Below are positions 7,788 through 64,000 of a stretch of 64,000 nucleotides of DNA, piece by piece. Below the pieces are notes generated by a model. That model searched no databases, was not told the DNA's origin, and saw only the letters and a program-made list of their open reading frames with translations. Positions within the stretch are counted from its first letter, which is position 1; the number at the start of each line of letters is the position of its first letter. This stretch comes from Allodiplogaster sudhausi (taxonomy: Eukaryota > Nematoda > Chromadorea > Rhabditida > Diplogasteridae): positions 4,810,001 to 4,874,000 of the forward strand of contig CALZFC010000021.1 in NCBI GenBank assembly GCA_945643635.1. The letters are read 5' to 3'. The position numbers and the translations under genes were made by a program.

Positions 7788-7826
7788 GATAAAATTATGT
7801 ACATTCTTCTGAAAAATGATCTTGTC

Positions 7827-7898
7827 AGCAGCGTGGCGCAGCGGAAGCGTGCTGGGCCCATGACCCAGAGGTCGGTGGATCGAAACCACTCGCTGCTA
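7827..7898 (+). tRNA. tRNA-iMet(CAU), first copy of the array
   Basis: Complete 72-nt cloverleaf. It differs from the array consensus in the D-loop (AGCGGAA for AGUGGAA) and by A37G next to the anticodon (CAUGA for CAUAA). Position 37 is normally t6A in initiator tRNA, so the G would prevent that modification. The leader reads GTACATT, as in the right half of the array. Terminator TTTTCTTTTT follows at 7899. Confidence 0.9.
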
Positions 7899-7973
7899 TT
7901 TTCTTTTTATTCTTTCGTTTTAATCACGACTAACGATAAAATTATGTATATTCCTCTGAAAGATGATCTTGTC

Positions 7974-8045
7974 AGCAGCGTGGCGCAGTGGAAGCGTGCT
8001 GGGCCCATAACCCAGAGGTCGGTGGATCGAAACCACTCGCTGCTA
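7974..8045 (+). tRNA. tRNA-iMet(CAU), array consensus
   Basis: It would carry the initiating methionine to the ribosome with eIF2. Stems: acceptor AGCAGCG with CGCUGCU (seven Watson-Crick pairs, A1:U72); D-stem GCGC with GCGU; anticodon stem CUGGG with CCCAG, giving three consecutive G:C pairs at its base; loop CCCAUAA, with C33 and anticodon CAU; variable loop AGGUC; T-stem GGUGG with CCACU; T-loop AUCGAAA (A54, A60). The discriminator is A73. The A1:U72 pair, A54/A60 and the GGG/CCC stem separate initiator from elongator tRNA-Met. The A box begins at UGGCGCAGUGG and the B box is GGAUCGAAACC. There is no intron. Confidence 0.97.
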
Positions 8046-8082
8046 TTTTCTCTTTATTCTTTCGTTTTAATCACGACTAACG

Positions 8083-8091
8083 ATAAAATTA
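8083..8091 (+). promoter_or_regulatory. AT-rich upstream element (-38 to -30), example copy
   Basis: ATAAAATTA lies 30-38 bp before the mature 5' end of the tRNA at 8121. The same element sits at the same distance in nearly every unit. The position is where TFIIIB contacts DNA upstream of tRNA genes, and insect tRNA genes often depend on AT-rich upstream sequence. Function is inferred. Confidence 0.5.
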
Positions 8092-8120
8092 TGTATATTC
8101 TTCTGAAAGATGATCTTGTC

Positions 8121-8192
8121 AGCAGCGTGGCGCAGTGGAAGCGTGCTGGGCCCATAACCCAGAGGTCGGTGGATCGAAACCACTCGCTGCTA
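8121..8192 (+). tRNA. tRNA-iMet(CAU), consensus copy
   Basis: Identical in the tRNA body to the copy at 7974. I use it as the reference for the flanking Pol III signals. Confidence 0.96.
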
Positions 8193-8202
8193 TTTTCTTT
8201 TT
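8193..8202 (+). terminator. Pol III terminator, example copy
   Basis: TTTT starts at the first base after discriminator A73, then C and TTTTT. This two-run arrangement occurs in most units, so the 3' trailer would be only the U tail. In units of the TTTCC type the first run is TTT and only the T5 remains. Confidence 0.85.
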
Positions 8203-8267
8203 ATTCTTTCGTTTTAATCACGACTAACGATAAAATTATGTATATTCTTCTGAAAGATGATCTTGTC

Positions 8268-8339
8268 ATGAGCGTGGCGCAGTGGAAGCGTGCTGGGCCC
8301 ATAACCCAGAGTTCGGTGGATCGAAACCACTCGCTTCTA
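8268..8339 (+). pseudogene. tRNA-iMet-like copy with four-base divergence
   Basis: The acceptor starts AUGAGCG in place of AGCAGCG (G2U, C3G). G70U on the other strand makes 3:70 a G:U wobble, but 2:71 is a U-C mismatch. The variable loop has AGUUC in place of AGGUC. The anticodon is still CAU and both promoter boxes look intact, so it may be transcribed even if it is a poor initiator. Confidence 0.7.
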
Positions 8340-8412
8340 TTTTCTTTTTATTCTTTTGTTATAATCGCGACTAACGATAAAATTATGTATATTCCTCTGA
8401 AAGATGATTATC

Positions 8413-8484
8413 ATGAGCGTGGCGCAGTGGAAGCGTGCTGGGCCCATGACCCAGAGGTCGGTGGATCGAAACCACTCGCTGCTA
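8413..8484 (+). pseudogene. tRNA-iMet-like copy, AUGAGCG acceptor and A37G
   Basis: The acceptor mismatches 2:71 and 3:70 are uncompensated, and G37 replaces A37. The leader is two bases shorter than normal. The copy at 11206 has the same combination. Confidence 0.7.
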
Positions 8485-8559
8485 TTTTCTTTTTATTCTT
8501 TCGTTTTAATCACGACTAACGATAAAATTATGTATATTCTTTTGAAAAATGATCTTGTC

Positions 8560-8631
8560 AGCAGCGTGGCGCAGTGGAAGCGTGCTGGGCCCATAACCCA
8601 GAGGTCGGTGGATCGAAACCACTCGCTGCTA
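8560..8631 (+). tRNA. tRNA-iMet(CAU)
   Basis: Consensus tRNA body. The leader reads TTTTGAAAAATG, shared with the copy at 8854. Confidence 0.95.
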
Positions 8632-8706
8632 TTTTCTTTTTATTCTTTCGTTTTAATCACGACTAACGATAAAATTATGTATATTCTTCTGAAAGATGAT
8701 CTTGTC

Positions 8707-8778
8707 ATGAGCGTGGCGCAGTGGAAGCGTGCTGGGCCCATAACCCAGAGGTCGGTGGATCGAAACCACTCGCTGCTA
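8707..8778 (+). pseudogene. tRNA-iMet-like copy, AUGAGCG acceptor
   Basis: Same two-base acceptor change as at 8413 but with the normal A37. Two adjacent mismatches near the end of the acceptor stem, in the pairs initiator-specific factors and methionyl-tRNA synthetase read, argue against normal function. Confidence 0.7.
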
Positions 8779-8853
8779 TTTTCTTTTTATTCTTTCGTTT
8801 TAATCACGACTAACGATAAAATTATGTATATTCTTTTGAAAAATGATCTTGTC

Positions 8854-8925
8854 AGCAGCGTGGCGCAGTGGAAGCGTGCTGGGCCCATAACCCAGAGGTC
8901 GGTGGATCGAAACCACTCGCTGCTA
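8854..8925 (+). tRNA. tRNA-iMet(CAU)
   Basis: Consensus tRNA body. The following spacer has AACCACAACTAACG and AAGTAC, a variant reused after 11206 and 16350. Confidence 0.95.
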
Positions 8926-9000
8926 TTTTCTTTTTATTCTTTCGTTTTAACCACAACTAACGATAAAATTAAGTACATTCTTCTGTAAGATGATCTTGTC

Positions 9001-9072
9001 AGCAGCGTGGCGCAGTGGAAGCGTGCTGGGCCCATAACCCAGAGGTCGGTGGATCGAAACCACTCGCTGCTA
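9001..9072 (+). tRNA. tRNA-iMet(CAU)
   Basis: Consensus body. It is followed by the GATCAAGATTAACG spacer that marks the intact sixth slot of the higher-order repeat, so this unit is the first trace of that repeat. Confidence 0.95.
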
Positions 9073-9147
9073 TTTTCTTTTTATTCTTTCGTTTTGATCA
9101 AGATTAACGATAAAATTATGTACATTCTTCTGAAAGATGTTTTTGTC

Positions 9148-9219
9148 AGCAGCGTGGCACAGTGGAAGCGTGCTGGGCCCATAACCCAGAGGTCGGTGGA
9201 TCGAAACTACTCGTTGCTA
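9148..9219 (+). pseudogene. Higher-order repeat slot 1: G12A, with wobble 3' strand
   Basis: D-stem GCAC puts A12 opposite C23. The 3' strand is CUACU CGUUGCU, which gives G52:U62 and G5:U68 wobbles and so keeps the fold. The same copy type is at 10030, 10912, 11353, 12235, 13704 and 14586. At 16056, 16644 and 17526 the slot has normal G12. Confidence 0.7.
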
Positions 9220-9294
9220 TTTTCTCTTTATTCTTTCGTTTTAATCACGACTAACGATAAAATTATGTATATTCTTCTGAAAAATGATCTTGTC

Positions 9295-9366
9295 AGCAGC
9301 GTGGCGCAGTTGAAGCGTGCTGGGCCCATAACCCAGAGGTCGGTGGATCGAAACCACTCGCTGCTA
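9295..9366 (+). pseudogene. Higher-order repeat slot 2: G18U in the D-loop
   Basis: The D-loop reads AGUUGAA. G18 is nearly invariant in tRNA: it pairs with position 55 to hold the elbow, and the base is also in the A box. I count 21 copies with this change between 9295 and 17820, all in block 2. Confidence 0.75.
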
Positions 9367-9441
9367 TTTTCTTTTTATTCTTTCGTTTTAATCACGACTA
9401 ACGATAAAATTATGTATATTCTTCTGAAAAATGATCTTGTC

Positions 9442-9513
9442 AGTAGCGTGGCGCAGTTGAAGCGTGCTGGGCCCATAACCCAGAGGTCGGTGGATCGAAA
9501 CCACTCGCTGCTA
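9442..9513 (+). pseudogene. Higher-order repeat slot 3: G18U plus C3U
   Basis: As slot 2, with the acceptor start AGUAGCG, making a U3:G70 wobble. The downstream spacer has TTTTTT where most units have TTCTTT. The copy at 15468 keeps C3, which shows mixing between slots 2 and 3. Confidence 0.75.
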
Positions 9514-9588
9514 TTTTCTTTTTATTTTTTCGTTTTAATCACGACTAACGATAAAATTATGTATATTCTTCTGAAAGATGATCTTGTC

Positions 9589-9660
9589 AGCAGCGTTTCG
9601 CAGTGGAAGCGTGCTGGGACCATAACCCAGAGGTCGGTGGATCGAAACCACTCGCTGCTA
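9589..9660 (+). pseudogene. Higher-order repeat slot 4: G9U, G10U and C32A
   Basis: The A-box start UGGCGC is UUUCGC, removing G10 of the D-stem and damaging the internal promoter. C32 of the anticodon loop is A. The anticodon is still CAU. Same type at 10471, 11794, 12676, 13264, 14145, 15027, 15615 and 17085. At 17967 the slot has returned to consensus. Confidence 0.8.
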
Positions 9661-9735
9661 TTTTCTTTTTATTCTTTCGTTTTAATCACGACTAACGATA
9701 AAATTATGTATATTCTTCTGAAAAATGATCTTGTC

Positions 9736-9806
9736 AGCAGCGTGCGCAGTGGAAGCGTGCTGGGCCCATAACCCAGAGGTCGGTGGATCGAAACCACTCG
9801 CTGCTA
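9736..9806 (+). pseudogene. Higher-order repeat slot 5: 1-nt deletion in the A box
   Basis: 71 nt: one G is lost from UGGCGC, shortening the 8-9 connector or D-stem. Same type at 10618, 11941, 13411, 14292, 15762, 17232, 18114 and 19580. Confidence 0.75.
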
Positions 9807-9881
9807 TTTTCTTTTTATTCTTTCGTTTTAATCACGACTAACGATAAAATTATGTATATTCTTCTGAAAGATGATCTTGTC

Positions 9882-9953
9882 AGCAGCGTGGCGCAGTGGA
9901 AGCGTGCTGGGCCCATAACCCAGAGGTCGGTGGATCGAAACCACTCGCTGCTA
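9882..9953 (+). tRNA. Higher-order repeat slot 6: intact tRNA-iMet(CAU)
   Basis: The only slot that keeps the consensus body in every repeat (also 10764, 12087, 13557, 14438, 15908, 17379). It is followed by the GATCAAGATTAACG spacer and a T-rich leader (GATG then five or six T). Confidence 0.93.
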
Positions 9954-12822
9954 TTTTCTTTTTATTCTTTCGTTTTGATCAAGATTAACGATAAAATTAT
10001 GTACATTCTTCTGAAAGATGTTTTTTGTCAGCAGCGTGGCACAGTGGAAGCGTGCTGGGCCCATAACCCAGAGGTCGGTGGATCGAAACTACTCGTTGCT
10101 ATTTTCTCTTTATTCTTTCGTTTTAATCACGACTAACGATAAAATTATGTATATTCTTCTGAAAAATGATCTTGTCAGCAGCGTGGCGCAGTTGAAGCGT
10201 GCTGGGCCCATAACCCAGAGGTCGGTGGATCGAAACCACTCGCTGCTATTTTCTTTTTATTCTTTCGTTTTAATCACGACTAACGATAAAATTATGTATA
10301 TTCTTCTGAAAAATGATCTTGTCAGTAGCGTGGCGCAGTTGAAGCGTGCTGGGCCCATAACCCAGAGGTCGGTGGATCGAAACCACTCGCTGCTATTTTC
10401 TTTTTATTTTTTCGTTTTAATCACGACTAACGATAAAATTATGTATATTCTTCTGAAAGATGATCTTGTCAGCAGCGTTTCGCAGTGGAAGCGTGCTGGG
10501 ACCATAACCCAGAGGTCGGTGGATCGAAACCACTCGCTGCTATTTTCTTTTTATTCTTTCGTTTTAATCACGACTAACGATAAAATTATGTATATTCTTC
10601 TGAAAAATGATCTTGTCAGCAGCGTGCGCAGTGGAAGCGTGCTGGGCCCATAACCCAGAGGTCGGTGGATCGAAACCACTCGCTGCTATTTTCTTTTTAT
10701 TCTTTCGTTTTAATCACGACTAACGATAAAATTATGTATATTCTTCTGAAAGATGATCTTGTCAGCAGCGTGGCGCAGTGGAAGCGTGCTGGGCCCATAA
10801 CCCAGAGGTCGGTGGATCGAAACCACTCGCTGCTATTTTCTTTTTATTCTTTCGTTTTGATCAAGATTAACGATAAAATTATGTACATTCTTCTGAAAGA
10901 TGTTTTTTGTCAGCAGCGTGGCACAGTGGAAGCGTGCTGGGCCCATAACCCAGAGGTCGGTGGATCGAAACTACTCGTTGCTATTTTCTCTTTATTCTTT
11001 CGTTTTAATCACGACTAACGATAAAATTATGTATATTCTTCTGAAAAATGATCTTGTCAGCAGCGTGGCGCAGTTGAAGCGTGCTGGGCCCATAACCCAG
11101 AGGTCGGTGGATCGAAACCACTCGCTGCTATTTTCTTTTTATTCTTTCGTTTTAATCACGACTAACGATAAAATTATGTATATTCTTCTGAAAGATGATC
11201 TTGTCATGAGCGTGGCGCAGTGGAAGCGTGCTGGGCCCATGACCCAGAGGTCGGTGGATCGAAACCACTCGCTGCTATTTTCTTTTTATTCTTTCGTTTT
11301 AACCACAACTAACGATAAAATTAAGTACATTCTTCTGTAAGATGATCTTGTCAGCAGCGTGGCACAGTGGAAGCGTGCTGGGCCCATAACCCAGAGGTCG
11401 GTGGATCGAAACTACTCGTTGCTATTTTCTCTTTATTCTTTCGTTTTAATCACGACTAACGATAAAATTATGTATATTCTTCTGAAAAATGATCTTGTCA
11501 GCAGCGTGGCGCAGTTGAAGCGTGCTGGGCCCATAACCCAGAGGTCGGTGGATCGAAACCACTCGCTGCTATTTTCTTTTTATTCTTTCGTTTTAATCAC
11601 GACTAACGATAAAATTATGTATATTCTTCTGAAAAATGATCTTGTCAGTAGCGTGGCGCAGTTGAAGCGTGCTGGGCCCATAACCCAGAGGTCGGTGGAT
11701 CGAAACCACTCGCTGCTATTTTCTTTTTATTTTTTCGTTTTAATCACGACTAACGATAAAATTATGTATATTCTTCTGAAAGATGATCTTGTCAGCAGCG
11801 TTTCGCAGTGGAAGCGTGCTGGGACCATAACCCAGAGGTCGGTGGATCGAAACCACTCGCTGCTATTTTCTTTTTATTCTTTCGTTTTAATCACGACTAA
11901 CGATAAAATTATGTATATTCTTCTGAAAAATGATCTTGTCAGCAGCGTGCGCAGTGGAAGCGTGCTGGGCCCATAACCCAGAGGTCGGTGGATCGAAACC
12001 ACTCGCTGCTATTTTCTTTTTATTCTTTCGTTTTAATCACGACTAACGATAAAATTATGTATATTCTTCTGAAAGATGATCTTGTCAGCAGCGTGGCGCA
12101 GTGGAAGCGTGCTGGGCCCATAACCCAGAGGTCGGTGGATCGAAACCACTCGCTGCTATTTTCTTTTTATTCTTTCGTTTTGATCAAGATTAACGATAAA
12201 ATTATGTACATTCTTCTGAAAGATGTTTTTTGTCAGCAGCGTGGCACAGTGGAAGCGTGCTGGGCCCATAACCCAGAGGTCGGTGGATCGAAACTACTCG
12301 TTGCTATTTTCTCTTTATTCTTTCGTTTTAATCACGACTAACGATAAAATTATGTATATTCTTCTGAAAAATGATCTTGTCAGCAGCGTGGCGCAGTTGA
12401 AGCGTGCTGGGCCCATAACCCAGAGGTCGGTGGATCGAAACCACTCGCTGCTATTTTCTTTTTATTCTTTCGTTTTAATCACGACTAACGATAAAATTAT
12501 GTATATTCTTCTGAAAAATGATCTTGTCAGTAGCGTGGCGCAGTTGAAGCGTGCTGGGCCCATAACCCAGAGGTCGGTGGATCGAAACCACTCGCTGCTA
12601 TTTTCTTTTTATTTTTTCGTTTTAATCACGACTAACGATAAAATTATGTATATTCTTCTGAAAGATGATCTTGTCAGCAGCGTTTCGCAGTGGAAGCGTG
12701 CTGGGACCATAACCCAGAGGTCGGTGGATCGAAACCACTCGCTGCTATGTTCTTTTTATTCTTTCGTTTTAATCACGACTAACGATAAAATTATGTATAT
12801 TCTTCTGAAAAATGATCTTGTC

Positions 12823-12894
12823 AGGAGCGTGGCGCAGTGGAAGCGTGCTGGGCCCATAACCCAGAGGTCGGTGGATCGAAACTACTCGTTGCTA
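12823..12894 (+). tRNA. tRNA-iMet-like copy with C3G
   Basis: The acceptor start AGGAGCG gives a G3-G70 mismatch, together with the CUACU CGUUGCU 3' strand. The same combination is at 15174, 43969, 56164, 60130 and 62336. At the last four it marks the first unit of a long higher-order repeat. The rest of the tRNA is intact. Confidence 0.7.
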
Positions 12895-15800
12895 TTTTCT
12901 CTTTATTCTTTCGTTTTAATCACGACTAACGATAAAATTATGTATATTCTTCTGAAAAATGATCTTGTCAGCAGCGTGGCGCAGTTGAAGCGTGCTGGGC
13001 CCATAACCCAGAGGTCGGTGGATCGAAACCACTCGCTGCTATTTTCTTTTTATTCTTTCGTTTTAATCACGACTAACGATAAAATTATGTATATTCTTCT
13101 GAAAAATGATCTTGTCAGTAGCGTGGCGCAGTTGAAGCGTGCTGGGCCCATAACCCAGAGGTCGGTGGATCGAAACCACTCGCTGCTATTTTCTTTTTAT
13201 TTTTTCGTTTTAATCACGACTAACGATAAAATTATGTATATTCTTCTGAAAGATGATCTTGTCAGCAGCGTTTCGCAGTGGAAGCGTGCTGGGACCATAA
13301 CCCAGAGGTCGGTGGATCGAAACCACTCGCTGCTATTTTCTTTTTATTCTTTCGTTTTAATCACGACTAACGATAAAATTATGTATATTCTTCTGAAAAA
13401 TGATCTTGTCAGCAGCGTGCGCAGTGGAAGCGTGCTGGGCCCATAACCCAGAGGTCGGTGGATCGAAACCACTCGCTGCTATTTTCTTTTTATTCTTTCG
13501 TTTTAATCACGACTAACGATAAAATTATGTATATTCTTCTGAAAGATGATCTTGTCAGCAGCGTGGCGCAGTGGAAGCGTGCTGGGCCCATAACCCAGAG
13601 GTCGGTGGATCGAAACCACTCGCTGCTATTTTCTTTTTATTCTTTCGTTTTGATCAAGATTAACGATAAAATTATGTACATTCTTCTGAAAGATGTTTTT
13701 GTCAGCAGCGTGGCACAGTGGAAGCGTGCTGGGCCCATAACCCAGAGGTCGGTGGATCGAAACTACTCGTTGCTATTTTCTCTTTATTCTTTCGTTTTAA
13801 TCACGACTAACGATAAAACTATGTATATTCTTCTGAAAAATGATCTTGTCAGCAGCGTGGCGCAGTTGAAGCGTGCTGGGCCCATAACCCAGAGGTCGGT
13901 GGATCGAAACCACTCGCTGCTATTTTCTTTTTATTCTTTCGTTTTAATCACGACTAACGATAAAATTATGTATATTCTTCTGAAAAATGATCTTGTCAGT
14001 AGCGTGGCGCAGTTGAAGCGTGCTGGGCCCATAACCCAGAGGTCGGTGGATCGAAACCACTCGCTGCTATTTTCTTTTTATTTTTTCGTTTTAATCACGA
14101 CTAACGATAAAATTATGTATATTCTTCTGAAAGATGATCTTGTCAGCAGCGTTTCGCAGTGGAAGCGTGCTGGGACCATAACCCAGAGGTCGGTGGATCG
14201 AAACCACTCGCTGCTATTTTCTTTTTATTCTTTCGTTTTAATCACGACTAACGATAAAATTATGTATATTCTTCTGAAAAATGATCTTGTCAGCAGCGTG
14301 CGCAGTGGAAGCGTGCTGGGCCCATAACCCAGAGGTCGGTGGATCGAAACCACTCGCTGCTATTTTCTTTTTATTCTTTCGTTTTAATCACGACTAACGA
14401 TAAAATTATGTATATTCTTCTGAAAGATGATCTTGTCAGCAGCGTGGCGCAGTGGAAGCGTGCTGGGCCCATAACCCAGAGGTCGGTGGATCGAAACCAC
14501 TCGCTGCTATTTTCTTTTTATTCTTTCGTTTTGATCAAGATTAACGATAAAATTATGTACATTCTTCTGAAAGATGTTTTTTGTCAGCAGCGTGGCACAG
14601 TGGAAGCGTGCTGGGCCCATAACCCAGAGGTCGGTGGATCGAAACTACTCGTTGCTATTTTCTCTTTATTCTTTCGTTTTAATCACGACTAACGATAAAA
14701 TTATGTATATTCTTCTGAAAAATGATCTTGTCAGCAGCGTGGCGCAGTTGAAGCGTGCTGGGCCCATAACCCAGAGGTCGGTGGATCGAAACCACTCGCT
14801 GCTATTTTCTTTTTATTCTTTCGTTTTAATCACGACTAACGATAAAATTATGTATATTCTTCTGAAAAATGATCTTGTCAGTAGCGTGGCGCAGTTGAAG
14901 CGTGCTGGGCCCATAACCCAGAGGTCGGTGGATCGAAACCACTCGCTGCTATTTTCTTTTTATTTTTTCGTTTTAATCACGACTAACGATAAAATTATGT
15001 ATATTCTTCTGAAAGATGATCTTGTCAGCAGCGTTTCGCAGTGGAAGCGTGCTGGGACCATAACCCAGAGGTCGGTGGATCGAAACCACTCGCTGCTATG
15101 TTCTTTTTATTCTTTCGTTTTAATCACGACTAACGATAAAATTATGTATATTCTTCTGAAAAATGATCTTGTCAGGAGCGTGGCGCAGTGGAAGCGTGCT
15201 GGGCCCATAACCCAGAGGTCGGTGGATCGAAACTACTCGTTGCTATTTTCTCTTTATTCTTTCGTTTTAATCACGACTAACGATAAAATTATGTATATTC
15301 TTCTGAAAAATGATCTTGTCAGCAGCGTGGCGCAGTTGAAGCGTGCTGGGCCCATAACCCAGAGGTCGGTGGATCGAAACCACTCGCTGCTATTTTCTTT
15401 TTATTCTTTCGTTTTAATCACGACTAACGATAAAATTATGTATATTCTTCTGAAAAATGATCTTGTCAGCAGCGTGGCGCAGTTGAAGCGTGCTGGGCCC
15501 ATAACCCAGAGGTCGGTGGATCGAAACCACTCGCTGCTATTTTCTTTTTATTTTTTCGTTTTAATCACGACTAACGATAAAATTATGTATATTCTTCTGA
15601 AAGATGATCTTGTCAGCAGCGTTTCGCAGTGGAAGCGTGCTGGGACCATAACCCAGAGGTCGGTGGATCGAAACCACTCGCTGCTATTTTCTTTTTATTC
15701 TTTCGTTTTAATCACGACTAACGATAAAATTATGTATATTCTTCTGAAAAATGATCTTGTCAGCAGCGTGCGCAGTGGAAGCGTGCTGGGCCCATAACCC

Positions 15801-16349
15801 AGAGGTCGGTGGATCGAAACCACTCGCTGCTATTTTCTTTTTATTCTTTCGTTTTAATCACGACTAACGATAAAATTATGTATATTCTTCTGAAAGATGA
15901 TCTTGTCAGCAGCGTGGCGCAGTGGAAGCGTGCTGGGCCCATAACCCAGAGGTCGGTGGATCGAAACCACTCGCTGCTATTTTCTTTTTATTCTTTCGTT
16001 TTGATCAAGATTAACGATAAAATTATGTACATTCTTCTGAAAGATGTTTTTTGTCAGCAGCGTGGCGCAGTGGAAGCGTGCTGGGCCCATAACCCAGAGG
16101 TCGGTGGATCGAAACTACTCGTTGCTATTTTCTCTTTATTCTTTCGTTTTAATCACGACTAACGATAAAATTATGTATATTCTTCTGAAAAATGATCTTG
16201 TCAGCAGCGTGGCGCAGTGGAAGCGTGCTGGGCCCATAACCCAGAGGTCGGTGGATCGAAACCACTCGCTGCTATTTTCTTTTTATTCTTTCGTTTTAAT
16301 CACGACTAACGATAAAATTATGTATATTCTTCTGAAAGATGATCTTGTC

Positions 16350-16420
16350 AGAGCGTGGCGCAGTGGAAGCGTGCTGGGCCCATAACCCAGAGGTCGGTGG
16401 ATCGAAACCACTCGCTGCTA
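16350..16420 (+). pseudogene. tRNA-iMet-like copy, acceptor deletion
   Basis: 71 nt; the acceptor starts AGAGCG after loss of C3. Same lesion at 18260 and 20900. The first two bases could still pair with C71 and U72, so only a bulge on the 3' strand may result. Confidence 0.7.
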
Positions 16421-24200: not shown

Positions 24201-24531
24201 TATTTTCTTTTTTTTCTTTCGTTTTAATCACGACTAACGATAAAATTAAGAACATTCTTCTGAAACATGATCTTGTCAGCAGCGTGGCGCAGTGGAAGCG
24301 TGCTGGGCCCATAACCCAGAGGTCGGTGGATCGAAACCACTCGCTGCTATTTTCTTTTTATTCTTTCGTTTTAACCACGACTAACGATAAAATTAAGTAC
24401 ATTCTTCTGAAAGACGAACTTGTCAGCAGCGTGGCGCAGTGGAAGCGTGCTGGGCCCATAACCCAGAGGTCGGTGGATCGAAACCACTCGCTGCTATTTT
24501 CTTTTTATTCTTTCGTTTTAACCACGATAAC
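18221..24531 (+). repeat. Array block 3: homogeneous canonical copies, 43 copies
   Basis: Starts: 18260, 18406, 18553, 18700, 18846, 18993, 19139, 19286, 19433, 19580; then 147-bp steps from 19724 to 20900 (9 copies) and from 21046 to 21928 (7); then 22074, 22221; then 147-bp steps from 22367 to 24425 (15). The tRNA body is nearly always canonical; exceptions are 18260 and 20900 (1-nt acceptor deletion) and 19580 (1-nt A-box deletion). The spacer changes within this block: leaders read GTATATT on the left and GTACATT from about 22 kb onward. Confidence 0.93.
23984..24055 (+). tRNA. tRNA-iMet(CAU) with C61U
   Basis: The earliest copy I see with T-stem UCACU. It turns the near-invariant G53:C61 pair, which is also in the B box, into G:U. 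The downstream run changes to TTTCCTTTTT in the same units. Copies of this type become common to the right, for example 38086, 42497, 47054, 55134 and 62483. Confidence 0.75.
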
Positions 24532-43526: not shown

Positions 43527-43598
43527 AGCAGCGTGGCGCAGTGGAAGCGTGCTGGGCCCGTAACCCAGAGGTCGGTGGATCGAAACTACTCGTTGCTA
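43527..43598 (+). tRNA. Initiator-type tRNA with anticodon CGU
   Basis: A35G (position 43560) changes CAU to CGU, which would read ACG (Thr). The remaining body is consensus except the wobble-type 3' strand. Initiator features (A1:U72, A54, A60, GGG/CCC stem) are kept, so if expressed it would be an initiator body with a Thr-type anticodon. Charging is uncertain, since methionyl-tRNA synthetase relies on CAU. Confidence 0.85.
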
Positions 43599-46500: not shown

Positions 46501-46611
46501 ACCCAGAGGTCGGTGGATCGAAACCACTCGCTGCTATTTTCTTTTTATTCTTTCGTTTTAACCACGACTAACGATAAAATTAAGTACATTCTTCTGAAAG
46601 ATGAACTTGTC

Positions 46612-52600: not shown

Positions 52601-55600
52601 TAAAATTATGTACATTCTTCTGTACGATGATCTTGTCAGCAGCGTGGCGCAGTGGAAGCGTGCTGGGCCCATAACCCAGAGGTCGGTGGATCGAAACTAC
52701 TCGTTGCTATTTTCTCTTTATTCTTTCGTTTTAACCACGACTAACGATAAAATTAAGTACATTCTTCTGAAAGATGAACTTGTCAGCAGCGTGGCGCAGT
52801 GGAAGCGTGCTGGGCCCATAACCCAGAGGTCGGTGGATCGAAACCACTCGCTGCTATTTTCTTTTTATTCTTTCGTTTTAACCACGACTAACGATAAAAT
52901 TAGAACATTCTTCTGAAAGATGAACTTGTCAGCAGCGTGGCGCAGTGGAAGCGTGCTGGGCCCATAACCCAGAGGTCGGTGGATCGAAATCACTCGCTGC
53001 TATTTCCTTTTTATTCTTTCGTTTTAATCACGACTAACGATAAAATTATGTACATTCTTCTGAAAGATGATCTTGTCAGCAGCGTGGCGCAGTGGAAGCG
53101 TGCTGGGCCCATAACCCAGAGGTCGGTGGATCGAAACTACTCGTTGCTATTTTCTCTTTATTCTTTCGTTTTAACCACGACTAACGATAAAATTAAGAAC
53201 ATTCTTCTGAAACATGAACTTGTCAGCAGCGTGGCGCAGTGGAAGCGTGCTGGGCCCATAACCCAGAGGTCGGTGGATCGAAACCACTCGCTGCTATTTC
53301 CTTTTTATTCTTTCGTTTTAATCACGACTAACGATAAAATTAAGAACATTCTTCTGAAAGATGATCTTGTCAGCAGCGTGGCGCAGTGGAAGCGTGCTGG
53401 GCCCATAACCCAGAGGTCGGTGGATCGAAACCACTCGCTGCTATTTTCTTTTTATTCTTTCGTTTTAACCACGATGAACGATAAAATTATGTACATTCTT
53501 CTGTACGATGATCTTGTCAGCAGCGTGGCGCAGTGGAAGCGTGCTGGGCCCATAACCCAGAGGTCGGTGGATCGAAACTACTCGTTGCTATTTTCTCTTA
53601 TTCTTTCGTTTTAATCACGACTAACGATAAAATTATGTACATTCTTCTGAAAGATGATCTTGTCAGCAGCGTGGCGCAGTGGAAGCGTGCTGGGCCCATA
53701 ACCCAGAGGTCGGTGGATCGAAACCACTCTCTGCTATTTTCTTTTTATTCTTTCGTTTTAATCAAGATTAACGATAAAATTATGTACATTCTTCTGAAAC
53801 ATGATCTTGTCAGCAGCGTGGCGCAGTGGAAGCGTGCTGGGCCCATAACCCAGAGGTCGGTGGATCGAAACCACTCGCTGCTATTTTCTTTTTATTCTTT
53901 CGTTTTAACCACGACTAACGATAAAATTAAGTACATTCTTCTGAAAGATGAACTTGTCAGCAGCGTGGCGCAGTGGAAGCGTGCTGGGCCCATAACCCAG
54001 AGGTCGGTGGATCGAAACCACTCGCTGCTATTTTCTTTTTTTTTCTTTGTTTTAATCACGACTAACGATAAAATTAAGTACATTCTTCTGAAAGATGAAC
54101 TTGTCAGCAGCGTGGCGCAGTGGAAGCGTGCTGGGCCCATAACCCAGAGGTCGGTGGATCGAAACCACTCGCTGCTATTTCCTTTTTATTCTTTCGTTTT
54201 AATCACGACTAACGATAAAATTAAGAACATTCTTCTGAAACATGATCTTGTCAGCAGCGTGGCGCAGTGGAAGCGTGCTGGGCCCATAACCCAGAGGTCG
54301 GTGGATCGAAACCACTCGCTGCTATTTTCTTTTTATTCTTTCGTTTTAACCACGATAACGATAAAATTATGTACATTCTTCTGAAAGATGATCTTGTCAG
54401 CAGCGTGGCGCAGTGGAAGCGTGCTGGGCCCATAACCCAGAGGTCGGTGGATCGAAACTACTCGTTGCTATTTTCTCTTTATTCTTTCGTTTTAATCACG
54501 ACTAACGATAAAATTATGTACATTCTTCTGAAAGATGATCTTGTCAGCAGCGTGGCGCAGTGGAAGCGTGCTGGGCCCATAACCCAGAGGTCGGTGGATC
54601 GAAACCACTCGCTGCTATTTTCTTTTTATTCTTTCGTTTTAATCACGACTAACGATAAAATTATGTACATTCTTCTGAAAGATGATCTTGTCAGCAGCGT
54701 GGCGCAGTGGAAGCGTGCTGGGCCCATAACCCAGAGGTCGGTGGATCGAAACCACTCGCTGCTATTTTCTTTTTATTCTTTCGTTTTAACCACGACTAAC
54801 GATAAAATTAAGTACATTCTTCTGAAAGATGAACTTGTCAGCAGCGTGGCGCAGTGGAAGCGTGCTGGGCCCATAACCCAGAGGTCGGTGGATCGAAACT
54901 ACTCGTTGCTATTTTCTCTTTATTCTTTCGTTTTAACCACGACTAACGATAAAATTAAGTACATTCTTCTGAAAGATGAACTTGTCAGCAGCGTGGCGCA
55001 GTGGAAGCGTGCTGGGCCCATAACCCAGAGGTCGGTGGATCGAAACCACTCGCTGCTATTTTCTTTTTATTCTTTCGTTTTAACCACGACTAACGATAAA
55101 ATTAAGAACATTCTTCTGAAAGATGAACTTGTCAGCAGCGTGGCGCAGTGGAAGCGTGCTGGGCCCATAACCCAGAGGTCGGTGGATCGAAATCACTCGC
55201 TGCTATTTCCTTTTTATTCTTTCGTTTTAATCACGACTAACGATAAAATTATGTACATTCTTCTGAAAGATGATCTTGTCAGCAGCGTGGCGCAGTGGAA
55301 GCGTGCTGGGCCCATAACCCAGAGGTCGGTGGATCGAAACTACTCGTTGCTATTTTCTCTTTATTCTTTCGTTTTAACCACGACTAACGATAAAATTAAG
55401 AACATTCTTCTGAAAGATGAACTTGTCAGCAGCGTGGCGCAGTGGAAGCGTGCTGGGCCCATAACCCAGAGGTCGGTGGATCGAAATCACTCGCTGCTAT
55501 TTTCTTTTTATTCTTTCGTTTTAATCACGACTAACGATAAAATTAAGAACATTCTTCTGAAACATGATCTTGTCAGCAGCGTGGCGCAGTGGAAGCGTGC

Positions 55601-57045
55601 TGGGCCCATAACCCAGAGGTCGGTGGATCGAAACCACTCGCTGCTATTTTCTTTTTATTCTTTCGTTTTAACCACGATGAACGATAAAATTATGTACATT
55701 CTTCTGTACGATGATCTTGTCAGCAGCGTGGCGCAGTGGAAGCGTGCTGGGCCCATAACCCAGAGGTCGGTGGATCGAAACTACTCGTTGCTATTTTCTC
55801 TTTATTCTTTCGTTTTAACCACGACTAACGATAAAATTAAGTACATTCTTCTGAAAGACGAACTTGTCAGCAGCGTGGCGCAGTGGAAGCGTGCTGGGCC
55901 CATAACCCAGAGGTCGGTGGATCGAAACCACTCGCTGCTATTTTCTTTTTATTCTTTCGTTTTAACCACGACTAACGATAAAATTAAGAACATTCTTCTG
56001 AAAGATGAACTTGTCAGCAGCGTGGCGCAGTGGAAGCGTGCTGGGCCCATAACCCAGAGGTCGGTGGATCGAAATCACTCGCTGCTATTTCCTTTTTATT
56101 CTTTCGTTTTAATCAAGACTAACGATAAAATTTATGTACATTCTTCTGAAAGATGATCTTGTCAGGAGCGTGGCGCAGTGGAAGCGTGCTGGGCCCATAA
56201 CCCAGAGGTCGGTGGATCGAAACTACTCGTTGCTATTTTCTCTTTATTCTTTCGTTTTAACCACGACTAACGATAAAATTAAGAACATTCTTCTGAAACA
56301 TGAACTTGTCAGCAGCGTGGCGCAGTGGAAGCGTGCTGGGCCCATAACCCAGAGGTCGGTGGATCGAAATCACTCGCTGCTATTTCCTTTTTATTCTTTC
56401 GTTTTAATCACGACTAACGATAAAATTAAGTACATTCTTCTGAAACATGATCTTGTCAGCAGCGTGGCGCAGTGGAAGCGTGCTGGGCCCATAACCCAGA
56501 GGTCGGTGGATCGAAACCACTCGCTGCTATTTTCTTTTTATTCTTTCGTTTTAACCACGATGAACGATAAAATTATGTACATTCTTCTGTACGATGATCT
56601 TGTCAGCAGCGTGGCGCAGTGGAAGCGTGCTGGGCCCATAACCCAGAGGTCGGTGGATCGAAACTACTCGTTGCTATTTTCTCTTTATTCTTTCGTTTTA
56701 ATCACGACTAACGATAAAATTATGTATATTCTTCTGAAAGATGATCTTGTCAGCAGCGTGGCGCAGTGGAAGCGTGCTGGGCCCATAACCCAGAGGTCGG
56801 TGGATCGAAACCACTCGCTGCTATTTTCTTTTTATTCTTTCGTTTTAATCAAGATTAACGATAAAATTATGTACATTCTTCTGAAACATGATCTTGTCAG
56901 CAGCGTGGCGCAGTGGAAGCGTGCTGGGCCCATAACCCAGAGGTCGGTGGATCGAAACCACTCGCTGCTATTTTCTTTTTATTCTTTCGTTTTAACCACG
57001 ACTAACGATAAAATTAAGTACATTCTTCTGAAAGATGAACTTGTC

Positions 57046-57117
57046 AGCAGCGTGGCGCAGTGGAAGCGTGCTGGGCCCATAACCCAGAGGTCGGTGGATC
57101 GAAACCACTTGCTGCTA
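57046..57117 (+). tRNA. tRNA-iMet(CAU) with C66U
   Basis: The acceptor 3' strand UGCUGCU makes G7:U66 a wobble. The structure is otherwise consensus. I saw this change once. Confidence 0.8.
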
Positions 57118-57633
57118 TTTTCTTTTTTTTCTTTCGTTTTAATCACGACTAACGATAAAATTAAGAACATTCTTCTGAAACATGATCTTGTCAGCAGCGT
57201 GGCGCAGTGGAAGCGTGCTGGGCCCATAACCCAGAGGTCGGTGGATCGAAACCACTCGCTGCTATTTTCTCTTTATTCTTTCGTTTTAACCACGACTAAC
57301 GATAAAATTAAGTACATTCTTCTGAAAGATGAACTTGTCAGCAGCGTGGCGCAGTGGAAGCGTGCTGGGCCCATAACCCAGAGGTCGGTGGATCGAAATC
57401 ACTCGCTGCTATTTCCTTTTATTCTTTCGTTTTAATCACGACTAACGATAAAATTTATGTACATTCTTCTGAAAGATGATCTTGTCAGCAGCGTGGCGCA
57501 GTGGAAGCGTGCTGGGCCCATAACCCAGAGGTCGGTGGATCGAAACTACTCGTTGCTATTTTCTCTTTATTCTTTCGTTTTAACCACGACTAACGATAAA
57601 ATTAAGTACATTCTTCTGAAAGATGAACTTGTC

Positions 57634-57705
57634 AGCAGCGTGGCGCAGTGGAAGCGTGCTGGGCCCATAACCCAGAGGTCGGTGGATCGAAACCAATCGC
57701 TGCTA
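57634..57705 (+). pseudogene. tRNA-iMet-like copy with C64A
   Basis: T-stem strand CCAAU puts A64 opposite G50. I saw this change once. Confidence 0.65.
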
Positions 57706-58219
57706 TTTTCTTTTTATTCTTTCGTTTTAACCACGATGAACGATAAAATTATGTACATTCTTCTGAAAGGCGAACTTGTCAGCAGCGTGGCGCAGTGGAA
57801 GCGTGCTGGGCCCATAACCCAGAGGTCGGTGGATCGAAACCACTCGCTGCTATTTTCTTTTTATTCTTTCGTTTTAACCACGATGAACGATAAAATTATG
57901 TACATTCTTCTGTACGATGACCTTGTCAGCAGCGTGGCGCAGTGGAAGCGTGCTGGGCCCATAACCCAGAGGTCGGTGGATCGAAACCACTCGCTGCTAT
58001 TTTCTTTTTATTCTTTCGTTTTAACCACGATAACGATAAAATTATGTACATTCTTCTGAACGATGACCTTGTCAGCAGCGTGGCGCAGTGGAAGCGTGCT
58101 GGGCCCATAACCCAGAGGTCGGTGGATCGAAACCACTCGCTGCTATTTTCTTTTTATTCTTTCGTTTTAACCACGATAACGATAAAATTATGTATATTCT
58201 TCTGAAAGATGATCTTGTC

Positions 58220-58291
58220 AGCAGCGTGGCGCAGTGGAAGCGTGCTGGGCCCATAACCCATAGGTCGGTGGATCGAAACCACTCGCTGCTA
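58220..58291 (+). pseudogene. tRNA-iMet-like copy with G43U
   Basis: Anticodon stem CCCAU gives a C27-U43 mismatch at the top of the stem. The anticodon and the three G:C pairs are intact. I saw this change once. Confidence 0.65.
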
Positions 58292-59394
58292 TTTTCTTTT
58301 TATTCTTTCGTTTTAACCACGATGAACGATAAAATTATGTACATTCTTCTGTACGATGATCTTGTCAGCAGCGTGGCGCAGTGGAAGCGTGCTGGGCCCA
58401 TAACCCAGAGGTCGGTGGATCGAAACCACTCGCTGCTATTTTCTTTTTATTCTTTCGTTTTAACCACGATGAACGATAAAATTATGTACATTCTTCTGAA
58501 CGATGATCTTGTCAGCAGCGTGGCGCAGTGGAAGCGTGCTGGGCCCATAACCCAGAGGTCGGTGGATCGAAACTACTCGTTGCTATTTTCTCTTTATTCT
58601 TTCGTTTTAATCACGACTAACGATAAAATTATGTATATTCTTCTGAAAGATGATCTTGTCAGCAGCGTGGCGCAGTGGAAGCGTGCTGGGCCCATAACCC
58701 AGAGGTCGGTGGATCGAAACCACTCGCTGCTATTTTCTTTTTATTCTTTCGTTTTAACCACGATAACGATAAAATTATGTACATTCTTCTGAACGATGAC
58801 CTTGTCAGCAGCGTGGCGCAGTGGAAGCGTGCTGGGCCCATAACCCAGAGGTCGGTGGATCGAAACCACTCGCTGCTATTTTCTTTTTATTCTTTCGTTT
58901 TAACCACGACTAACGATAAAATTAAGTACATTCTTCTGAAAGATGAACTTGTCAGCAGCGTGGCGCAGTGGAAGCGTGCTGGGCCCATAACCCAGAGGTC
59001 GGTGGATCGAAACCACTCGCTGCTATTTTCTTTTTATTCTTTCGTTTTAACCACGACTAACGATAAAATTAAGTACATTCTTCTGAAAGACGAACTTGTC
59101 AGCAGCGTGGCGCAGTGGAAGCGTGCTGGGCCCATAACCCAGAGGTCGGTGGATCGAAACTACTCGCTGCTATTTTCTCTTTATTCTTTCGTTTTAACCA
59201 CGACTAACGATAAAATTAAGTACATTCTTCTGAAAGACGAACTTGTCAGCAGCGTGGCGCAGTGGAAGCGTGCTGGGCCCATAACCCAGAGGTCGGTGGA
59301 TCGAAACCACTCGCTGCTATTTTCTTTTTATTCTTTCGTTTTAACCACGACTAACGATAAAATTAAGAACATTCTTCTGAAAGATGAACTTGTC

Positions 59395-59466
59395 AGCAGC
59401 GTGGCGCAGTGGAAGCGTGCTGGGCCGATAACCCAGAGGTCGGTGGATCGAAATCACTCGCTGCTA
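59395..59466 (+). tRNA. Initiator-type tRNA with anticodon GAU
   Basis: C34G (position 59427) changes CAU to GAU, which reads AUC/AUU (Ile). The copy also has the C61U T-stem. I saw this anticodon once. Confidence 0.85.
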
Positions 59467-60864
59467 TTTCCTTTTTATTCTTTCGTTTTAATCACGACTA
59501 ACGATAAAATTAAGAACATTCTTCTGAAACATGATCTTGTCAGCAGCGTGGCGCAGTGGAAGCGTGCTGGGCCCATAACCCAGAGGTCGGTGGATCGAAA
59601 CCACTCGCTGCTATTTTCTTTTTATTCTTTCGTTTTAACCACGATAACGATAAAATTATGTACATTCTTCTGTACGATGATCTTGTCAGCAGCGTGGCGC
59701 AGTGGAAGCGTGCTGGGCCCATAACCCAGAGGTCGGTGGATCGAAACTACTCGTTGCTATTTTCTCTTTATTCTTTCGTTTTAACCACGACTAACGATAA
59801 AATTAAGTACATTCTTCTGAAAGACGAACTTGTCAGCAGCGTGGCGCAGTGGAAGCGTGCTGGGCCCATAACCCAGAGGTCGGTGGATCGAAACCACTCG
59901 CTGCTATTTTCTTATTATTCTTTCGTTTTAACCACGACTAACGATAAAATTAAAAACATTCTTCTGAAAGATGAACTTGTCAGCAGCGTGGCGCAGTGGA
60001 AGCGTGCTGGGCCCATAACCCAGAGGTCGGTGGATCGAAATCACTCGCTGCTATTTCCTTTTTATTCTTTCGTTTTAATCAAGACTAACGATAAAATTTA
60101 TGTACATTCTTCTGAAAGATGATCTTGTCAGGAGCGTGGCGCAGTGGAAGCGTGCTGGGCCCATAACCCAGAGGTCGGTGGATCGAAACTACTCGTTGCT
60201 ATTTTCTCTTTATTCTTTCGTTTTAACCACGACTAACGATAAAATTAAGAACATTCTTCTGAAACATGAACTTGTCAGCAGCGTGGCGCAGTGGAAGCGT
60301 GCTGGGCCCATAACCCAGAGGTCGGTGGATCGAAATCACTCGCTGCTATTTCCTTTTTATTCTTTCGTTTTAATCACGACTAACGATAAAATTAAGAACA
60401 TTCTTCTGAAACATGATCTTGTCAGCAGCGTGGCGCAGTGGAAGCGTGCTGGGCCCATAACCCAGAGGTCGGTGGATCGAAACCACTCGCTGCTATTTTC
60501 TTTTTATTCTTTCGTTTTAACCACGATGAACGATAAAATTATGTACATTCTTCTGTACGATGATCTTGTCAGCAGCGTGGCGCAGTGGAAGCGTGCTGGG
60601 CCCATAACCCAGAGGTCGGTGGATCGAAACTACTCGTTGCTATTTTCTCTTTATTCTTTCGTTTTAATCACGACTAACGATAAAATTATGTATATTCTTC
60701 TGAAAGATGATCTTGTCAGCAGCGTGGCGCAGTGGAAGCGTGCTGGGCCCATAACCCAGAGGTCGGTGGATCGAAACCACTCTCTACTATTTTCTTTTTA
60801 TTCTTTCGTTTTAATCAAGATTAACGATAAAATTATGTACATTCTTCTGAAACATGATCTTGTC

Positions 60865-60935
60865 AGCAGCGTGGCGCAGTGGAAGCGTGCTGGGCCCATA
60901 ACCAGAGGTCGGTGGATCGAAACCACTCGCTGCTA
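60865..60935 (+). pseudogene. tRNA-iMet-like copy, 1-nt deletion in the anticodon stem
   Basis: 71 nt; one C is missing from the CCC of the 3' anticodon strand, which would break the initiator-specific G:C stack. Confidence 0.75.
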
Positions 60936-61893
60936 TTTTCTTTTTATTCTTTCGTTTTAACCACGACTAACGATAAAATTATGTACATTCTTCTGAAAGA
61001 CGAACTTGTCAGCAGCGTGGCGCAGTGGAAGCGTGCTGGGCCCATAACCCAGAGGTCGGTGGATCGAAACCACTCGCTGCTATTTTCTTTTTTTTTCTTT
61101 TGTTTTAATCACGACTAACGATAAAATTAAGAACATTCTTCTGAAAGATGAACTTGTCAGCAGCGTGGCGCAGTGGAAGCGTGCTGGGCCCATAACCCAG
61201 AGGTCGGTGGATCGAAATCACTCGCTGCTATTTCCTTTTTATTCTTTCGTTTTAATCACGACTAACGATAAAATTAAGAACATTCTTCTGAAACATGATC
61301 TTGTCAGCAGCGTGGCGCAGTGGAAGCGTGCTGGGCCCATAACCCAGAGGTCGGTGGATCGAAACCACTCGCTGCTATTTTCTTTTTATTCTTTCGTTTT
61401 AACCACGATGAACGATAAAATTATGTACATTCTTCTGAACGATGATCTTGTCAGCAGCGTGGCGCAGTGGAAGCGTGCTGGGCCCATAACCCAGAGGTCG
61501 GTGGATCGAAACTACTCGTTGCTATTTTCTCTTTATTCTTTCGTTTTAATCACGACTAACGATAAAATTATGTATATTCTTCTGAAAGATGATCTTGTCA
61601 GCAGCGTGGCGCAGTGGAAGCGTGCTGGGCCCATAACCCAGAGGTCGGTGGATCGAAACCACTCTCTGCTATTTTCTTTTTATTCTTTCGTTTTAATCAA
61701 GACTAACGATAAAATTATGTACATTCTTCTGAAACATGATCTTGTCAGCAGCGTGGCGCAGTGGAAGCGTGCTGGGCCCATAACCCAGAGGTCGGTGGAT
61801 CGAAACCACTCGCTGCTATTTTCTTTTTATTCTTTCGTTTTAACCACGACTAACGATAAAATTAAGTACATTCTTCTGAAAGACGAACTTGTC

Positions 61894-61965
61894 AGCAGCG
61901 TGGCGCAGTGGAAGCGTGCTGGGCCCGTAACCCAGAGGTCGGTGGATCGAAACTACTCGTTGCTA
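61894..61965 (+). tRNA. Initiator-type tRNA with anticodon CGU (second copy)
   Basis: A35G at 61927, with the same wobble-type 3' strand and the same neighbouring unit types as the copy at 43527. The two are 18,367 bp apart, so shared descent through a long-range duplication or conversion is more likely than two independent mutations. Confidence 0.85.
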
Positions 61966-62776
61966 TTTTCTCTTTATTCTTTCGTTTTAACCACGACTAA
62001 CGATAAAATTAAGTACATTCTTCTGAAAGATGAACTTGTCAGCAGCGTGGCGCAGTGGAAGCGTGCTGGGCCCATAACCCAGAGGTCGGTGGATCGAAAC
62101 CACTCGCTGCTATTTTCTTTTTATTCTTTCGTTTTAACCACGACTAACGATAAAATTAAGAACATTCTTCTGAAAGATGAACTTGTCAGCAGCGTGGCGC
62201 AGTGGAAGCGTGCTGGGCCCATAACCCAGAGGTCGGTGGATCGAAATCACTCGCTGCTATTTCCTTTTTATTCTTTCGTTTTAATCAAGACTAACGATAA
62301 AATTTATGTACATTCTTCTGAAAGATGATCTTGTCAGGAGCGTGGCGCAGTGGAAGCGTGCTGGGCCCATAACCCAGAGGTCGGTGGATCGAAACTACTC
62401 GTTGCTATTTTCTCTTTATTCTTTCGTTTTAACCACGACTAACGATAAAATTAAGAACATTCTTCTGAAACATGAACTTGTCAGCAGCGTGGCGCAGTGG
62501 AAGCGTGCTGGGCCCATAACCCAGAGGTCGGTGGATCGAAATCACTCGCTGCTATTTCCTTTTTATTCTTTCGTTTTAATCACGACTAACGATAAAATTA
62601 AGAACATTCTTCTGAAACATGATCTTGTCAGCAGCGTGGCGCAGTGGAAGCGTGCTGGGCCCATAACCCAGAGGTCGGTGGATCGAAACCACTCGCTGCT
62701 ATTTTCTTTTTATTCTTTCGTTTTAACCACGATGAACGATAAAATTATGTACATTCTTCTGTACGATGATCTTGTC

Positions 62777-62848
62777 AGCAGCGTGGCGCAGTGGAAGCGT
62801 GCTGGGCCCATAACCCTGAGGTCGGTGGATCGAAACTACTCGTTGCTA
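62777..62848 (+). pseudogene. tRNA-iMet-like copy with A42U
   Basis: Anticodon stem CCCUG leaves a U28-U42 mismatch. The 3' strand is the wobble type. I saw this change once. Confidence 0.65.
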
Positions 62849-63951
62849 TTTTCTCTTTATTCTTTCGTTTTAACCACGACTAACGATAAAATTAAGTACA
62901 TTCTTCTGAAAGATGAACTTGTCAGCAGCGTGGCGCAGTGGAAGCGTGCTGGGCCCATAACCCAGAGGTCGGTGGATCGAAACCACTCGCTGCTATTTTC
63001 TTTTTATTCTTTCGTTTTAACCACGACTAACGATAAAATTAAGAACATTCTTCTGAAAGATGAACTTGTCAGCAGCGTGGCGCAGTGGAAGCGTGCTGGG
63101 CCCATAACCCAGAGGTCGGTGGATCGAAATCACTCGCTGCTATTTCCTTTTTATTCTTTCGTTTTAATCAAGACTAACGATAAAATTATGTACATTCTTC
63201 TGAAAGATGATCTTGTCAGCAGCGTGGCGCAGTGGAAGCGTGCTGGGCCCATAACCCAGAGGTCGGTGGATCGAAACTACTCGTTGCTATTTTCTCTTTA
63301 TTCTTTCGTTTTAACCACGACTAACGATAAAATTAAGAACATTCTTCTGAAACATGAACTTGTCAGCAGCGTGGCGCAGTGGAAGCGTGCTGGGCCCATA
63401 ACCCAGAGGTCGGTGGATCGAAATCACTCGCTGCTATTTCCTTTTTATTCTTTCGTTTTAATCACGACTAACGATAAAATTAAGAACATTCTTCTGAAAC
63501 ATGATCTTGTCAGCAGCGTGGCGCAGTGGAAGCGTGCTGGGCCCATAACCCAGAGGTCGGTGGATCGAAACCACTCGCTGCTATTTTCTTTTTATTCTTT
63601 CGTTTTAACCACGATAACGATAAAATTATGTACATTCTTCTGTACGATGATCTTGTCAGCAGCGTGGCGCAGTGGAAGCGTGCTGGGCCCATAACCCAGA
63701 GGTCGGTGGATCGAAACTACTCGTTGCTATTTTCTCTTTATTCTTTCGTTTTAATCACGACTAACGATAAAATTATGTATATTCTTCTGAAAGATGATCT
63801 TGTCAGCAGCGTGGCGCAGTGGAAGCGTGCTGGGCCCATAACCCAGAGGTCGGTGGATCGAAACCACTCTCTACTATTTTCTTTTTATTCTTTCGTTTTA
63901 ATCACGACTAACGATAAAATTATGTACATTCTTCTGAAACATGATCTTGTC

Positions 63952-64000
63952 AGCAGCGTGGCGCAGTGGAAGCGTGCTGGGCCCATAACCCAGAGGTCGG
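63952..64000 (+). tRNA. tRNA-iMet(CAU), truncated by the window end
   Basis: The first 49 nt of a consensus copy, through the variable loop. It shows that the array continues past the right edge. Confidence 0.95.

Follow-up and report, generated by a model that had tools for sequence, protein, structure and literature searches.

In the genome assembly of the nematode Allodiplogaster sudhausi (GCA_945643635.1; 351.8 Mb in 382 contigs), hundreds of initiator tRNA-Met (tRNA-iMet) genes stand in one tandem array on contig CALZFC010000021.1 (C21), and a homologous array lies on a second contig (C49). The first array (array 1) fills most of a 64,000-nucleotide stretch, C21:4810001-4874000, which is called the window below; positions without a contig name count from its first base. 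We consider it reasonably probable that arrays 1 and 2 are a satellite-like expansion of a genuine initiator tRNA-Met gene, with a functional core and copies that are largely redundant.

Tandem Repeats Finder reported a single array of period 147 in the window, with 382.6 copies and 96% matches. A unit-by-unit walk found 382 complete tRNA-iMet copies with start positions from 7827 to 63805; the next copy, number 383, begins at 63952 and is truncated by the window edge. All of them lie head-to-tail on the plus strand in a 147-bp unit. Thus, the 382 complete copies and one partial copy counted in the original prediction were found again in the same number, and its statement that the array runs off the edge also held: array 1 could be read on to about C21:4889715, some 15.7 kb past the window, for a total of 489 full units. 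There a unit is interrupted within the tRNA and non-array sequence follows, so that array 1 meets non-array flanks at both ends. Units below 85% identity were left out of the aligned set, which in array 1 removed only the truncated end (1/490). In its one orientation, head-to-tail order and length of tens of kb, array 1 resembles the tandem tRNA arrays of Entamoeba.

ARAGORN, run with the bacterial setting, called 369 tRNAs in the window, all on the plus strand (365 Met(CAT), 2 Thr(CGT), 1 Ile(GAT), and 1 undetermined), and therefore left 13 of the 382 walked copies uncalled. With cmscan, 373 window matches reached at least the gathering threshold; the best 150 of the 373 were all RF00005 at 57.4 bits and the other 223 scored lower. 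The gathering threshold is 29 bits, and 57.4 bits is the score of a consensus copy. The Met(CAT) majority, together with the intact initiator set of most copies, bears out the prediction of a single isoacceptor with initiator identity.

The hallmarks of initiator tRNAs are A1:U72, three G-C pairs next to the anticodon loop, and A54 and A60. The arrayed tRNA is 72 nt long with A1:U72, the anticodon CAT and the T loop ATCGAAA. The full initiator set together with all 21 stem pairs is present in 396/489 copies of array 1 and 412/502 copies of array 2, and the 21 stem pairs taken by themselves in 414/489 and 419/502. About one fifth of the copies are without the full initiator set (93/489 and 90/502), and the tRNA is identical to the consensus in 240/489 and 390/502. 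We take TGGCGCAGTGG and GGATCGAAACC to be the A box and the B box of the internal RNA polymerase III (Pol III) promoter (Table 1). The A box is unchanged in 491/502 copies of array 2, and 160 of the 162 array 1 copies with an altered B box differ at one of its last two bases. The 75-bp spacer of array 1 begins in most units with TTTT directly 3' of the tRNA and is then AT-rich; TTTT occurs within 20 nt after the tRNA in 483/489 units of array 1 and in all 502 of array 2. Moreover, CGATAAAATT was found 488 times across the 489 units of array 1. Since stem pairs, boxes, and terminators are kept in the majority of the copies, most of them look competent for Pol III.

Nearly all copies carry the CAT anticodon (480/489 in array 1, 496/502 in array 2). 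The array 1 copies with an initiator body and the anticodon CGT or GAT (Table 1) are at 43527, 59395, 61894 and further right, and the anticodon CAC is found in 4/502 units of array 2. If transcribed, these copies would be initiator tRNAs for non-AUG codons, although they are more likely to be defective.

Table 1. Coordinates of the arrays and of the parts of a representative unit. Positions without a contig name are those of the window.
Feature	Position	Strand	Evidence or remark
Array 1, window part: 382 complete tRNA-iMet copies and one cut copy	7788..64000	+	Tandem Repeats Finder, unit walk
First tRNA-iMet copy	7827..7898	+	ARAGORN; Rfam RF00005, 53.9 bits
AT-rich, TATA-like GATAAAATTATG, -39 to -28 of next tRNA	7935..7946	+	Read directly; possible role only
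Representative unit: 72-bp tRNA-iMet (7974-8045), equal to the array consensus in the tRNA, and 75-bp spacer	7974..8120	+	Rfam, 57.4 bits
A box TGGCGCAGTGG, presumed internal Pol III promoter, representative copy	7981..7991	+	Unchanged in 434/489 units
Anticodon CAT, representative copy	8006..8008	+	Array 1: 480/489 CAT, 7 CGT, 2 GAT
B box GGATCGAAACC (presumed), representative copy	8024..8034	+	Unchanged in 327/489
TTTT run directly after the tRNA, Pol III terminator	8046..8049	+	In 404/489 units
tRNA-Arg(TCG) matches	C21:1782219-1889203	minus	tRNA-family search
tRNA-Lys(TTT) matches	C19:2480428-2500169	plus	tRNA-family search
tRNA-Arg(TCG) matches	C9:5848763-5851682	minus	tRNA-family search

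Array 2 was found by a DNA search with one unit. This search skips very common words and listed places on C49 only, and it is therefore uninformative on other tRNA-iMet copies. Array 2 lies at about C49:550,781-621,765 and has a 139-bp unit, of which 502 could be aligned at 85% identity or more. The 9 of 511 units left out comprise the truncated end and a flank insert with the units bordering it, one of which is a real unit in a shifted register. The left junction is common to both arrays. The right end of array 2 also falls inside a tRNA, about 13 bases further than in array 1, before the same flanking sequence, and array 2 likewise has non-array flanks at both ends. As far as the sequence was examined, the flanks of the two loci are homologous and collinear on both sides, with a divergence of 8.0% (573/7189 aligned sites in seven blocks). 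The blocks are the long collinear matches, four on the left and three of fourteen on the right; the matches left out were ten repeat-like or non-collinear ones and one collinear match of 44 bases. Two features interrupt this collinearity, a minisatellite expansion in C21 and a C49 insert of about 4.9 kb. Since both the left junction and the right flank are shared, the array is most likely older than the split of the two loci, and an ancestral array would have predated their divergence. C21 and C49 may be haplotypes of a highly diverse diploid, homeologs, or products of a large duplication.

Several other features were seen around the arrays. The C49 insert, in the right flank (C49:624959-628753), contains inverted stretches related to places near C21:4918483-4940050 and looks like a transposable element. 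The minisatellite beside array 1 is purine-rich (3000-5823; 44-bp unit, about 65 copies), and since the blocks bordering it abut in C49, it is nearly absent there. Between it and array 1 there is an apparent small gene (6417-7479) with short introns, its structure judged by eye. The predicted product is rich in Ala, Arg, and Glu and coiled-coil-like, and the stretch is conserved in the left flank on C49. Inside array 2, near its left end, a 980-bp segment (C49:555870-556850) is a 100% identical copy of the array's own left flank, which might be a recent rearrangement or an assembly fault.

The two array consensuses are identical in the tRNA (72/72), while the spacers differ by three substitutions in 67 sites and by an 8-bp indel. 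The 8-bp stretch is lost in 0/489 units of array 1 and regained in 0/502 of array 2, and column 99 is C in 489/489 and T in 502/502. The other two substituted sites share states: column 113 is A in 489/489 units of array 1 and in 201/502 of array 2, and column 141 is A in 142/489 and 491/502. Thus, fixed differences between the arrays are limited to the 8-bp indel and column 99, and the fixed and shared sites together point to homogenisation mainly within each array. The stricter idea that there was no exchange between the arrays was dropped because of the shared states at two of the three sites.

Array 2 has a homogeneous interior and decayed edges on both sides; its core of 300 units (126-425) shows a single variant in the tRNA and three in the spacer. 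Consensus tRNAs make up their largest share of array 1 at units 76-200, a low share at both ends, and an intermediate one elsewhere. A long tandem array with a homogenised core and decayed edges is one mark of satellite DNA, and it is seen here. As to the other mark, a non-coding repeat that has kept no gene function, the fold and the Pol III signals are retained in most copies. Exact multi-unit blocks also recur in array 1 at short lags, up to 11 units at lag 16, as unequal exchange would give.

Several comparisons argue for selection on the tRNA. No difference in the 72 sites of the tRNA consensus, against 8.0% divergence in the flanks, has a chance of 0.0025. The inner units of array 1 (76-450) have 22 distinct variants over the 72 sites of the tRNA and 45 over the 75 of the spacer (p=0.0098), and the copy-weighted divergence is 0.0097 for the tRNA versus 0.0414 for the spacer. 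Stem variants of array 1 that keep a pair fill 272 cells versus 101 for those that break one, and the commonest three (C60T, C61T, and C67T) turn a G-C pair into G-U and keep the fold. A pair-keeping variant also tends to be present in more copies than a pair-breaking one (one-sided rank test, p=0.063 for array 1 and p=0.020 for array 2).

A number of results weigh against the favoured reading. Over the whole of array 2, variation in the tRNA is no lower than in the spacer, with 61 distinct variants in 72 tRNA sites versus 44 in 67 spacer sites and a divergence of 0.0082 versus 0.0094. In its margins, distinct variants are more numerous in the tRNA (42 vs 29 on the left, 29 vs 18 on the right; not significant), and the one tRNA and three spacer variants of its core (p=0.36) are too few to test. 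Pair-breaking stem variants fill 138 cells of array 2 and pair-keeping ones 46, and two pair-breaking variants, C40A (45) and A62T (38), have spread among its 502 units. Among distinct stem variants there was no significant enrichment for pair-keeping (p=0.12 in array 1, p=0.61 in array 2), and the contrast of tRNA and spacer between the two consensuses alone was not significant (p=0.11). Copy-weighted counts are not independent events. Finally, columns 113 and 141 may reflect some exchange between the arrays or old shared variation. On balance, the consensus of the tRNA has probably been under selection and the interior of the arrays probably too, with little or no selection on single edge copies.

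The original prediction had offered a choice between a very skewed initiator supply and a silent tRNA-derived satellite. What can be read from the letters alone suggests a mix, with a homogeneous core and decayed edges. In the strict form of the second option, a once functional tRNA-iMet gene would have been multiplied by runaway unequal crossing-over, the array would be heterochromatic, and dispersed tRNA-iMet genes would do the work. The spread of C40A and A62T would be expected under such silence, as would a tRNA that in array 2 as a whole is no more conserved than the spacer and the fifth of copies lacking the full initiator set. Furthermore, there is a precedent in an Arabidopsis Ser/Tyr cluster, which has been reported to be silent in the majority of tissues and to be switched on in cells of the root cap (PMC12308677). 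However, a silent array would not readily account for a tRNA consensus that is the same at two loci with 8% flank divergence, for an interior of array 1 in which the tRNA varies less than the spacer, or for boxes and terminators retained in the majority of the copies. We therefore regard complete silence as possible but doubtful.

Other tRNAs are arrayed in this genome as well. When the genome was searched with the tRNA family, 47,110 first-look candidates came up. Of the 63 that were scored, 62 matched; these matches are on C9, C19, C21, and C266, and the tRNA-iMet arrays are not among them. Five stretches (4,150 bases in total) were read. Four of the five hold single-isoacceptor tandems: tRNA-Arg(TCG) at two places on C21, with 345- and 231-bp units, a partly decayed tRNA-Arg(TCG) tandem on C9, and tRNA-Lys(TTT) on C19, where a 137-bp unit alternates with one of about 258 bp. 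The stretch on C266 shows one tRNA-Arg(TCG) in 200 bases and is too short to separate a tandem from a single gene. Since the stretches were selected from the best-scoring matches, they give no estimate for the whole tRNA set. The 345-bp Arg unit also contains a second, partial Arg-like stretch. The original prediction of initiator genes "and nothing else" is thus right for array 1 itself but does not hold for the genome, and the idea that the initiator is the sole arrayed tRNA of this genome was rejected.

It is conceivable, although we think it unlikely, that much of the tRNA set stands in isoacceptor-specific mega-arrays as in Entamoeba, and that about a thousand initiator genes serve as a switchable translation reserve for the oocyte or embryo. 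By analogy with Xenopus, the copy number itself might also have been selected because it supplies initiator tRNA in a burst, for instance to oocytes or early embryos. The near-equal size of the two arrays (489 and 502 aligned units) despite the divergence of their flanks would fit such a dosage effect. The initiator has been termed rate-limiting, and tandem oocyte-specific tRNA genes in Xenopus are activated at zygotic genome activation (PMC11500080). On the other hand, arrays also exist for Arg and Lys tRNAs, which leaves initiation without a special position; a large number of defective copies is tolerated; and the similar size of two arrays can be a coincidence. We consider selection for copy number as such improbable.

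Expansion of a short cluster during assembly is very improbable, although arrays whose units are nearly identical are well known to mislead assemblers, the core of array 2 (300 units) has four variants only, and near its left end array 2 includes the perfect 980-bp copy of its left flank. Against such an expansion, 165 distinct unit types occur among the 489 units of array 1, both arrays reach non-array flanks at both ends, and the longest exact repeats measure 1,650 bp (array 1) and 2,779 bp (array 2). These lengths are below that of usual long reads, which could thus have threaded the arrays.

Two further candidates were rejected. The period of 147 bp does not reflect the nucleosome, since the homologous array has a unit of 139 bp and the units of the Lys and Arg arrays are about 137, 231, and 345 bp. 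Short interspersed elements (SINEs) derived from tRNAs are dispersed insertions with a tRNA-unrelated body and a 3' tail. Both arrays consist of strictly tandem units, each a tRNA with a short spacer and no extra body, and are thus not SINEs.

Contig C228 bears on the origin of the DNA. It is 48,965 bp long and carries two COX1 copies about 20.1 kb apart (C228:14856-36308). The COX1 match has eight in-frame TGA codons and was read with the invertebrate mitochondrial code, and it supports the animal origin that the original prediction had assumed. It points to a rhabditid nematode: among the best 120 listed of 7998 scored proteins, the top named match was Litoditis, a member of that group, at 94%, with other Rhabditida next. 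A COX1 tree with 17 rows did not assign the sequence to a genus. C228 is perhaps a mitochondrial genome of about 20 kb that was assembled more than once around. A size of about 20 kb is large for a nematode mitochondrial genome.

If the arrays are an expansion of a genuine initiator gene with a functional core, as we favour, the 147-bp unit on C21 and the 139-bp unit on C49 would each be a self-contained Pol III gene, with A and B boxes, an initiator fold, a T-run terminator, and a short AT-rich spacer. After the two loci diverged, each array would have been homogenised mainly within itself by unequal exchange, gene conversion, or both. Selection may have maintained the tRNA consensus and probably the units of the interior, whereas those at the edges decayed. 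The array would most likely supply initiator tRNA, with only a fraction of the copies needed or active at once. The initiator arrays would then be part of a wider habit of this genome to form long single-tRNA arrays, as seen for Arg and Lys at the sampled places.

The tRNA repeat of Xenopus contains several tRNA types in a unit of about 3.2 kb, whereas here there is one gene per 139-147 bp. The Xenopus case is otherwise similar in being an animal with tandem tRNA genes, and those genes are transcribed by Pol III at a developmental stage (PMC11500080). The original prediction held that tandem tRNA repeats elsewhere mix tRNA types. This needs correction, since tRNA-Pro(TGG) of Entamoeba histolytica and E. 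dispar is in a single-gene array (PMC2652664), and a tRNA satellite array of 91.95 kb, tRNASAT_ZM, has been reported from chromosome 4L of maize Mo17 (PMC10335936). As in A. sudhausi, the Entamoeba arrays consist of real tRNA genes placed head-to-tail, with most copies uniform (in Entamoeba, within an isolate). Entamoeba, however, is a protist in which almost all tRNA genes are arrayed, in units of up to five genes, whereas the initiator arrays of A. sudhausi, an animal, have one gene per unit of about 140 bp. Moreover, short tandem repeats lie between the genes in E. histolytica and E. dispar (PMC2652664), while the consensus units here have none and only a single spacer of 67 or 75 bp. The maize array is alike in being of satellite scale and named for a tRNA; it belongs to a plant. 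In our arrays, most copies retain an intact fold, both promoter boxes, and the terminator. Arabidopsis has tandem tRNA-Pro clusters (PMC11700998), and these and the Ser/Tyr cluster (PMC12308677) resemble our arrays in being tandem with a single or few isoacceptors, but they have tens of copies rather than hundreds. In a survey of 50 plants, each species had 1-34 copies of iMet, and clusters reached up to 110 genes (PMC12652284). A 2010 survey of eukaryotes described same-type and mixed tRNA clusters and more than 17,000 tRNA genes and pseudogenes in Nematostella (PMC2888827). No tandem initiator tRNA array of a nematode was evident among the matches listed for the open-licence PubMed Central literature, which is no proof of absence. 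Tandem tRNA arrays as such are already known from plants and amoebae, and the initiator version in an animal is unusual. What seems to be new is the combination of an animal, the initiator, a minimal unit of 139-147 bp, two homologous loci with about a thousand copies between them, and other isoacceptors that are arrayed too.

No protein is made without the initiator tRNA, and growth is sensitive to its dose. With two arrays in one animal, each of about 500 copies and with units distinguishable by their own variants, the number of tRNA genes could be related to their output, and the bulk silencing or choice of Pol III genes could be studied. The arrays would also bear on the respective parts of concerted evolution and selection in a gene whose function has to be preserved. 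Furthermore, the passage from a decayed edge to a homogeneous core is a natural gradient from broken to perfect copies.

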